A DNA stretch of 64,000 nt from Candidatus Peribacterales bacterium (GTDB lineage Bacteria > Patescibacteriota > Gracilibacteria > Peribacterales > Peribacteraceae). Below are positions 7,109-56,848 of this stretch, piece after piece. The stretch lies in assembly GCA_020058765.1 (NCBI GenBank), contig JAGVDM010000004.1:186001-250000 (forward strand), read 5' to 3'. The notes under the pieces are model-generated. The model was not told the DNA's origin. It saw nothing but the letters and a program-made list of their open reading frames with translations, and did not search any database. Each line of letters opens with the position of its first letter. Positions within the stretch are counted from its first letter, which is position 1. The position numbers were made by a program, and so were the translations under genes.

Positions 7109-7195
7109 TGGTGCCGACGGAGAGAATCGAACTCTCACAGGATTGCTCCTACACGCTCCTGAAGCGTGCGCGTCTACCAATTCCGCCACGTCGGC
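7109..7195 (-). tRNA. tRNA-Leu (anticodon CAG)
   Basis: 87 nt including an encoded CCA. The acceptor GCCGACG pairs with CGTCGGC, discriminator A. The D-arm, a long variable arm typical of class II tRNAs, and the T-loop GTTCGATTC are present. The anticodon loop TTCAGGA gives CAG. Confidence 0.97.
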
Positions 7196-12865: not shown

Positions 12866-12942
12866 CGGGATGTAGCTCAGTTGGCTAGAGCGCGTCGTTC
12901 GGGACGACGAGGCCGGAGGTTCAAGTCCTCTCATCCCGACCA
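12866..12942 (+). tRNA. tRNA-Pro (anticodon CGG)
   Basis: 77 nt including encoded CCA. The acceptor CGGGATG pairs with CATCCCG, discriminator A. The anticodon stem CGTCG/CGACG holds the loop TTCGGGA (CGG), and the T-loop is GTTCAAGTC. A C1 start is typical of bacterial tRNA-Pro. Confidence 0.97.
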
Positions 12943-23981: not shown

Positions 23982-24069
23982 GGAGGGATGGCAGAGTGGC
24001 CGATCGCGCCTGACTTGAAATCAGGTTGACCGCAAGGTCACGTGGGTTCGAATCCCACTCCCTCCGCCA
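23982..24069 (+). tRNA. tRNA-Ser (anticodon UGA)
   Basis: 88 nt including encoded CCA. The acceptor GGAGGGA pairs with TCCCTCC, discriminator G. The anticodon stem CCTGA/TCAGG holds the loop CTTGAAA (TGA), and a long variable arm (GACCGCAAGGTC) is present. A promoter TTTCCA-N17-TATACT (23947-23975) is immediately upstream. Confidence 0.97.
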
Positions 24070-30590: not shown

Positions 30591-30678
30591 TGGCGGAGAG
30601 GGAGGGATTCGAACCCTCGAGACCTTGCGGTCTGCCACGTTAGCAGTGTGGTGCCTTCAGCCACTCGGCCACCTCTCC
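30591..30678 (-). tRNA. tRNA-Ser (anticodon GCU)
   Basis: 88 nt including encoded CCA. The acceptor GGAGAGG pairs with CCTCTCC, discriminator G. The anticodon loop CTGCTAA gives GCT, and the long variable arm GACCGCAAGGTC matches that of tRNA-Ser(UGA). One A-C mismatch is seen in the anticodon stem next to the loop. Confidence 0.96.
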
Positions 30679-38132: not shown

Positions 38133-38209
38133 TGGTACCCCGGACAGGATTCGAACCTGTGACCTACAGCTTAGAAGGCTGCCGCTCTATCCACCTGAGC
38201 TACCGGGGC
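38133..38209 (-). tRNA. tRNA-Arg (anticodon UCU)
   Basis: 77 nt including encoded CCA. The acceptor GCCCCGG pairs with CCGGGGT (terminal G-U), discriminator A. The anticodon loop CTTCTAA gives TCT and the T-loop is GTTCGAATC. Its leader contains an exact 20-nt copy of its own 5' end (38286-38305). Confidence 0.97.
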
Positions 38210-38316
38210 ACTGTGGTAATGCTATTCTTTGACAGACACCGCGGTTCGCTTATTTGATGTGTGACTCGCGCAAGCGCTCGTCAACCCACCTGAGCTACCG
38301 GGGCATACGAACAGTA
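38210..38316 (-). other. Structured leader of tRNA-Arg with a copy of the tRNA 5' end
   Basis: Read on the minus strand, the -10 box TATACT (38316-38311) is followed at 38305-38286 by a perfect 20-nt copy of the tRNA start plus one flanking base (38210-38191), offset 95 nt. Next comes a hairpin TGAC-GA-GCGCTTGCGC-GA-GTCA in which GA faces GA and the loop is CUUG, then TAAGCGAAC and AGCATTACCA just before the tRNA. Similar elements occur before tRNA-Phe. Confidence 0.65.
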
Positions 38317-38398
38317 TAGCAAGAAATCGTGGCTTTCTCATGGGCATTTCTCGGTCGGCAGCCAAGAAGACGCCTTGGCAACGAGAGGTGCTGCCAGT

Positions 38399-47518: not shown

Positions 47519-47552
47519 CACACTGCATTCCGATTACTCTTTGCACATCAAC

Positions 47553-47653
47553 TGGGCGTTGCTCAGTTGGGTCGAGTCCCGCATATGCGGGACGAGCACT
47601 AGAAAAACTCGCCTGACGAGGCGCGCCAGGAAATCATGCATCATTCACATCAT
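47553..47653 (+). other. Structured leader of tRNA-Pro(UGG) with a partial tRNA copy
   Basis: GGGCGTTGCTCAGTTGG (47554-47570) matches the tRNA 5' region (47656-47672) in 16 of 17 positions, offset 102 nt. It is followed by TCGAGTCCCGC (47572-47582), identical to part of the tRNA T-arm (47709-47719), inside a hairpin GA-GTCCCGCATATGCGGGAC-GA. A second hairpin, CGCCTGACGAGGCG, comes before the tRNA. Confidence 0.6.
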
Positions 47654-47730
47654 CGGGGCGTAGCTCAGTTGGCTAGAGCGCCTGGTTTGGGACCAGGAGG
47701 CCGCGAGTTCGAGTCCCGCCGCCCCGACCA
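47654..47730 (+). tRNA. tRNA-Pro (anticodon UGG)
   Basis: 77 nt including encoded CCA. The acceptor CGGGGCG pairs with CGCCCCG, discriminator A. The anticodon stem CCTGG/CCAGG holds TTTGGGA (TGG); the T-loop is GTTCGAGTC. Confidence 0.97.
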
Positions 47731-56663: not shown

Positions 56664-56739
56664 TGGTGGCCCAGACCAGGTTCGAACTGGTGACACCTCG
56701 CTCTTCAGGCGAGTGCTCTACCAACTGAGCTACCGGGCC
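56664..56739 (-). tRNA. tRNA-Phe (anticodon GAA)
   Basis: 76 nt including encoded CCA. The acceptor GGCCCGG pairs with CTGGGCC (one G-U), discriminator A. The anticodon stem CTCGC/GCGAG holds CTGAAGA (GAA), and the T-loop is GTTCGAACC. Confidence 0.97.
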
Positions 56740-56848
56740 ACGTATTTGGTACGATGCTGTGAACGATACAGGACCGAGCATACTTGTTCTCTTACGCCTC
56801 GGCCAAGGCCTCGGCGGTCAACTTGAGCTACCGGGCCACGAGATCTCG
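56740..56848 (-). other. Structured leader of tRNA-Phe with a copy of the tRNA 5' end
   Basis: On the minus strand CGTGGCCCGGTAGCTCA (56840-56824) repeats the tRNA start and three flanking bases (56742-56726) exactly, offset 98 nt. It is followed by a hairpin CGCC-GA-GGCCTTGGCC-GA-GGCG with GA facing GA and a CUUG loop, then TAAGAGAAC and AGCATCGTACCA before the tRNA. The palindrome CGAGATCTCG (56839-56848) abuts the copy. Confidence 0.65.

Follow-up and report, generated by a model that had tools for sequence, protein, structure and literature searches.

In T-box riboswitches (RF00230 and relatives), a structured leader specific for one tRNA contacts this tRNA at several sites, reads its anticodon and 3' CCA, and precedes aminoacyl-tRNA synthetase or amino-acid genes. 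Attenuators and riboswitches of the trp type employ a repeated segment competing for one complementary strand (mutually exclusive 1:2 and 2:3 pairings). A separate tRNA 5' half completing a tRNA-like structure with another strand is described in passages on human tRNase ZL, where guide RNAs mimicking 5'-half-tRNA direct the cleavage of target RNAs (PMC2691602). Half-tRNA units and interrupted D-arms are features of split and intron-bearing tRNAs (archaeal, and bacterial with group I introns), and partial tRNA duplicates near tRNA genes are left behind as integration scars (att duplications). Duplications made by integrases usually comprise 3' parts of the tRNA.

The leaders reported here appear, by their sequences, to resemble these nearest analogues only in part. 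Unlike T-boxes, they precede tRNA genes (the first gene downstream in 114/114 single-unit leaders), copy the tRNA 5' half and carry an antisense segment to the D-arm. In contrast to trp-type attenuators, they would control a tRNA, with its own fold as one of the alternatives, and no terminator is seen. Compared to the guides of the human enzyme as portrayed in the above passages, the 5' half here is bacterial and is supplied in cis, ahead of the very tRNA it mimics. Other than in split or intron-bearing tRNAs, the downstream tRNA is complete and a leader segment replaces, rather than interrupts, nt 20-23; other than in att scars, the duplicate consists of 5' nt 1-19 and is accompanied by a covarying hairpin and antisense. 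Rfam searches of the analysed DNA (contig C6, 186001-250000; 64,000 nt of a 1.17-Mb genome, 99 % complete; hereafter the window) at the gathering threshold and of 8 leader loci at E ≤ 1 yielded only tRNAs and chance matches; neither the T-box covariance model nor the group I core (RF00028) matched the window or these loci, nor did any intron family. The literature, mainly open-access papers, revealed no description of such tRNA leaders, in agreement with the initial annotation of this locus, which knew of no RNA class of this form. A study of five Peribacteria genomes reports 46 tRNA genes and, in the passages found, makes no mention of tRNA leaders (PMC4736985). The leaders have apparently been overlooked because tRNA leaders are rarely examined.

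The tRNA-Arg(UCU) gene (38133-38209, minus strand; ARAGORN, and Rfam RF00005 with 70 bits) is preceded by its leader at 38210-38304 on the same strand. The leader opens with GCCCCGGTAGCTCAGGTGG (38286-38304), identical in 19/19 positions to nt 1-19 of the tRNA at an offset of 95 nt; 18-19 of these 19 positions are kept in most syntenic leaders of other genera. The exact 20-nt copy claimed initially corresponds to nt 1-19 plus the preceding base, since a T stands both before the copy and before the tRNA. By our own arithmetic, an ungapped 19/19 match within 220 nt has a chance probability of the order of 1e-9. The TATACT -10 box noted before the copy locates at 38313-38318, 8 nt upstream (enriched at group level, 26/80), which is compatible with the initial suggestion that the primary transcript starts with the copy: the latter would lie at, or a few bases from, the likely transcription start. 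Further downstream follow hairpin 1 (38263-38282; GAC-GA-GCG-CUUG-CGC-GA-GUC), for which the predicted tandem GA internal loop and CUUG loop were found and which is supported by covariation across 108 distinct sequences, an A-rich linker (38250-38262) of a kind present 3' of hairpin 1 in all leader types, and hairpin 2 (38241-38249). The latter combines sense AGCG (tRNA nt 24-27, starting one base before) with antisense CCGC (complement of nt 25-28); these pieces are weak in the Arg(UCU) leader of the window and strong in relatives. A candidate tRNA-proximal -10 box, TAGCAT (38219-38224), fits a loose -10 pattern, for which enrichment is evident at group level only (39/81 vs 3/81). Thermodynamic folding of the Arg leader alone gave ordinary stability (z = 0.02); covariation serves as the evidence for structure. 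The structured parts of the Pro and Phe leaders reached z = -2.99 and z = -2.07, respectively.

The like organisation proposed for tRNA-Phe (offset 98) and, in looser form, tRNA-Pro(UGG) (offset 102) was recovered at both genes. The leader of tRNA-Phe(GAA) (gene 56664-56739, leader 56740-56837, minus strand; ARAGORN and Rfam for the gene, match to the retrained covariance model R2 for the leader, locus L019) comprises a copy at 56819-56837 (16/20 ungapped, one inserted base in the D-loop), hairpin 1 at 56795-56816 with the same GA/GA internal loop and CUUG loop as in Arg, an A-rich linker at 56783-56794 and antisense UGCUC at 56776-56780. On the plus strand, tRNA-Pro(UGG) (47654-47730; ARAGORN and Rfam) follows a leader at 47552-47653 (R2 match of 59.8 bits, locus L020), in which the copy (47552-47570; 17/19, or 17/20 over 20 nt) is succeeded by hairpin 1 (47571-47597; longer stem, AUAU loop, flanking GA...GA), the A-rich linker (47598-47608), sense nt 26-31 (47610-47615) and antisense (47619-47624). 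The remaining four tRNAs of the window were correctly described as lacking a copy, their best upstream match to the own 5' end being ≤12/20. In these leaderless genes (7109-7195, 12866-12942, 23982-24069 and 30591-30678), TATACT/TACACT -10 boxes lie a short distance upstream; the same applies to further leaderless tRNAs of this genome, and very short 5' leaders are implied. Absence of RNase P as a cause of such starts was rejected, as the genome encodes both RNase P RNA and RNase P protein.

The three genes initially recognized are real instances of a wider occurrence: a leader of ~95-113 nt with nt 1-19 of the own tRNA precedes 15/43 tRNA genes of the genome, namely Ala(UGC), Arg(UCG), Arg(UCU), Asp, His, Ile(GAU), Ile(UAU), Met, Phe, Pro(GGG), Pro(UGG), Thr(GGU), Thr(UGU), Val(CAC) and Val(GAC), where Arg(UCG) is counted despite being split across two contig ends. 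Two leader units stand in tandem before Ile(GAU), and a truncated leader remnant before Val(UAC) is probably a decaying copy. A covariance model of D-arm copy, hairpin 1 and A-rich linker (R1) matched 21/59 relatives, every one within the family Ca. Peribacteria. Retraining (R2) extended this to 58/74 genomes and 32/40 genera of the family, so that the model search of relatives suggested in the initial annotation proved productive. Among 287 genomes sampled from the phylum, those outside the family gave weak matches only (E > 1e-5), mostly 70-88 nt long and representing the tRNA itself. A pattern scan of 84,980 genomes retrieved 17 stretches, all but two from Ca. Peribacteria/Peregrinibacteria records; the two from unrelated organisms were taken for chance matches. 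No leader match was obtained in viral contigs, and a sister-family genome had leaders at 0/32 tRNAs and a single tandem tRNA only. Within the family, two individual genomes carry leaders at 0/31 and at least 7/31 tRNAs, respectively. These searches under-detect type C leaders (R2, e.g., Trp, Lys and Thr in genome G028), leaders of tRNAs with other D-arms may escape them, and counts from related sequences do not represent independent events. The surveyed genomes are mostly metagenome-assembled; an assembly artefact is unlikely because syntenic leaders recur in many assemblies. Leaders of single isoacceptors are syntenic between genera, with flanking proteins mostly 40-75 % identical, as at the Arg(UCU) locus of the window and four further loci. 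Leaders at such syntenic loci are vertically inherited.

Leader anatomy was derived from 125 non-redundant leaders preceding tRNAs, 114 of them single-unit, with types A, B and C assigned through simple patterns. Over a length of ~75-118 nt, the copy of nt 1-19 is followed by hairpin 1, the A-rich linker, often a sense segment of nt ~24-32, the D-arm antisense, a tail with a -10 box and the tRNA; hairpin 1 and linker occupy the place of the D-loop and the 3' strand of the D-stem. Among the leaders free of tail duplication (83), copy and tRNA showed an identity of 0.82-0.96 over nt 1-19 (~90 %), which fell to 0.18 at nt 20; upstream of the copy it was 0.2-0.35 at most positions (~0.3 through -3), with 0.57 at -2 and 0.71 at -1. 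Nucleotides 1-7 of the copy matched the cognate tRNA with an identity of 0.877 (shuffled 0.447, maximum 0.52), and among tRNAs for the same amino acid but with different acceptors, identity was 0.866 to the own tRNA vs 0.678. Beyond the first of each isoacceptor, at least 21 acceptor variants possess exact copies, as exemplified by GGGCGCC/GGGCGGU/GGGCGCA of Val(UAC). From these comparisons the copies are seen to follow their own tRNA upon change of the acceptor strand, the kind of compensatory change between copy and cognate tRNA that the initial annotation had proposed to look for. Nucleotides 1-7 are not exactly kept in 36/114 leaders (palindromic insertions cause some of these cases), hence the acceptor copy is dispensable in places.

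Hairpin 1 displays massive compensatory change. Across the 108 distinct sequences, 93.2 % of paired cells were complementary (59.1 % shuffled), double changes numbered 284 (92 in shuffles), and the covariation score reached 0.748, compared to 0.193 for shuffled and ≤0.146 for slid alignments. Compensatory changes beyond these controls place the leaders among functional structured RNAs. Tandem GA/GA characterizes hairpin 1 of types A and B, a different motif that of type C. In a kink-turn, a three-base bulge lies beside tandem sheared G-A pairs; types A and B contain tandem GA/GA, but in a symmetric loop, and type C is devoid of GA/GA.

Several constituents had not been recognized in the initial annotation, i.e., the antisense to the D-arm, the sense segment of nt ~24-32, the tRNA-proximal promoter, tandem arrays and the family-wide distribution. 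The antisense covers nt ~28 to 22 and in type B extends up to 31 to 13. Its longest exact match to cognate nt 14-32 averages 9.72 nt in type B (up to 17; permuted 6.62, sd 0.22) and 6.4 nt in types A and C (permuted 5.3, sd 0.14), where little is present past GCUC plus 1-3 bases. Tracking was assessed from D-loop bases 20/20a, which are present in the tRNA and absent from the copy, in 45 leaders with a recognisable core: the antisense matched the own tRNA in 39/45 (expected 15.9), a value attained in 0/20,000 permutations. The sense segment of nt 24-32 likewise tracks the cognate tRNA in type B (0/5000 permutations) and type A (2/5000), tracking in type C not being significant. Covariation of the leader with the tRNA covers nt 1-7, 15-28 and 24-32. 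Since sense and antisense both track the cognate, the leader represents a decoy of the tRNA 5' half together with a clamp for the genuine one. The conserved class thus carries two complementarities directed at its tRNA; judged from sequence, the leaders belong to a single family of structured leader RNAs, each cognate to its tRNA, which is confined to one bacterial family.

With respect to transcription, -10-like boxes end 7-14 nt ahead of the copy in 26/80 leaders, against 6/80 for a control span, and at the same spacing before the tRNA at 39/81 leader loci (3/81 in the control); 10/26 leaderless tRNAs of the genome have such a box. Enrichment at both sites indicates that copy and tRNA probably each have a promoter of the same spacing. 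Transcripts from the upstream promoter should begin 2-6 nt before the copy. T-runs across leader loci gave no terminator signature 3' of the leader; they mostly occupy fixed positions (-26 to -23 from the tRNA), resembling a promoter element, and their interpretation as a terminator behind the leader was rejected for this fixed distance.

A strand-exchange switch of tRNA folding is tentatively favoured. RNA from the upstream promoter would start with the copy and continue into the tRNA, allowing two mutually exclusive folds. In the native fold, the tRNA would fold by itself and the copy remain with the leader. In the exchanged fold, the copy would displace the tRNA 5' half within the long transcript: nt 1-7 of the copy would pair with tRNA nt 66-72 (3' acceptor strand) and copy nt 27-31 with tRNA nt 39-43 (3' anticodon strand), hairpin 1 would substitute for the D-arm, and the antisense would trap the authentic 5' half by clamping nt 15-31. 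The leader would thereby decide whether an upstream transcript yields tRNA, while RNA from the tRNA-proximal promoter, being without leader, would represent ordinary pre-tRNA. Hairpin 1 and linker form a probable, putative binding site for a protein or ligand, through which a signal might be sensed; the analysis pinpointed neither a conserved ligand pocket nor a partner protein. Strand exchange would account for every conserved leader piece, and the initially suggested pairing of the copy with the 3' acceptor strand in competition with correct folding fits all parts found and is the leading candidate mechanism. Equilibrium folding preferred the copy-closed fold, equally so with the rest of the leader shuffled, and was discarded as proof of a switch because of this control. 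The patchy spread over tRNAs and genomes sits oddly with essential control. The inexact nt 1-7 of 36/114 copies and the short antisense of types A and C also speak against the switch, as does the ability of the copy to pair within its own leader in several leaders of the genome of the window (His, Ala, Ile). It is also conceivable, if somewhat doubtful, that the two 5' halves compete for one 3' half and the antisense arm removes the authentic one, giving rise to a tRNA-like hybrid whose D-arm, hairpin 1, is foreign, as a gene-specific switch or a second RNA product.

Strand exchange in cis shares its complementarities with an unlikely alternative, in which the leader, directly or after processing, acts in trans on its own tRNA as an independent small RNA, a cognate anti-tRNA (D-arm antisense plus acceptor decoy), to unfold, store or mark it. 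A promoter apparently belonging to the copy and release of the leader by RNase P, encoded in the genome and cutting at the tRNA, would agree with such an RNA. The T-runs, however, keep a fixed distance to the tRNA rather than trailing the leader, so that no terminator capable of ending an independent leader RNA is seen. Action in cis is favoured by the position of all 114/114 single-unit leaders beside their cognate tRNA; of the few matches lacking a called tRNA downstream, most lie at contig ends or beside degenerate tRNA copies. The two promoters of identical spacing would equally suit a device at the level of transcription, where duplication of the promoter and of the first transcribed stretch would serve to double or insulate transcription of the tRNA, the RNA structure having only a protective role for the transcript. 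This is quite improbable, as it leaves unexplained why the antisense follows the D-loop bases of each tRNA and why the sense segment of nt 24-32 exists.

A selfish or inserted element in tRNA genes, its copy being a target-site duplication upheld by recent spread or conversion, could be read from the patchy distribution, the tandem arrays and the interrupted second tRNA copies. It is nevertheless very unlikely: same-isoacceptor leaders are syntenic across genera, with flanks mostly 40-75 % identical, copies track the tRNA at these loci, tail duplications resemble remnants of tandem units rather than target duplications, conversion cannot create a reverse-complement segment, and viral contigs contain none. 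Little can be said for RNA joining, with copy nt 1-19 as exon and the antisense as splint for ligation to tRNA nt 20-76, whereby the intervening RNA would be removed and a perfect tRNA result. The sharp end of the copy at nt 19 and the type B antisense, which spans the 19|20 junction unbroken, are in its favour; joining would, however, be redundant because the downstream tRNA is complete, in types A and C the antisense fails to follow the boundary of the copy (its 3' half lacks covariation with the copy/hairpin boundary), Rfam gives no group I match, and the changes in many copies would spoil the product. That the leaders are tandem tRNA duplications or integrations in decay is scarcely credible even though tandem tRNAs are generally common and some loci hold tandem or broken tRNA copies, for a 19-nt block of 90 % identity with random flanks on either side is unexpected of a neutral duplicate, as are the compensatory changes in hairpin 1 and the cognate antisense; a neutral relic or att scar was rejected for the whole class (sharp edges at nt 1 and 19, synteny, no viral matches), and lack of conservation or neutral decay of duplicates, named beforehand in the initial annotation as outcomes against its own reading, did not occur. 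Chance was dismissed as origin of the copy given the 19/19 match at Arg and the sharp nt 1-19 module in 83 leaders.

Should strand exchange hold true, the leaders, which occur in at least 32 genera of a single reduced lineage, would form an extensive group of RNA elements encoded in cis by which tRNAs are regulated or remodelled, and would provide a natural design for switching tRNA folding; gene-by-gene tuning of tRNA supply in minimal-genome cells becomes testable. Even under another mechanism, co-evolving sense and antisense of the own tRNA within a leader demand explanation.

Variation among copies and leader units was also observed. Palindromic repeats of the CCTGCCTGCCGGCAGGCAGG or CCTCCTTCGCCAAGGCTACGGAGG types reside in the D-stem (GTAGC/TC) of ten copies from several genera and were seen in no functional tRNA. 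A hairpin-like mobile repeat seems to find in the copy a landing site where it is tolerated. In five diverged copies (L007, L116, L121, L172 and L181), nt 5-8 are changed to (A/G)CA(G/A), mostly giving AGAGCUC, and can pair with the leader's own antisense in L116, L121 and L172; the change recurs among different tRNAs and genera. At ten loci, the whole unit of copy, hairpins and tail (~87-112 nt) is present two or three times in tandem before one tRNA. Six others harbour an intact tRNA followed by a second, interrupted tRNA copy, in which hairpin 1, A-rich linker and hairpin 2 stand in place of nt ~20-26, with anticodon arm, T-arm and CCA retained in some. As most look degenerate, these interrupted tRNAs (type II) were read as by-products and rejected as a functional form.

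Two further arrangements concern individual tRNAs in the genome of the window. A variant without hairpin 1 precedes tRNA-Ser(GGA) (locus L042), where two tandem partial copies of the 5' half, folding on themselves (GGAGA...UCUCC), lie ~63 and 136 nt upstream, possibly as a class II tRNA variant of the same principle. On contig C1, a second tRNA-Ala(UGC) copy devoid of acceptor nt 1-6 is situated 15 nt past the intact gene (locus L045, C1:81951-82011, minus strand).
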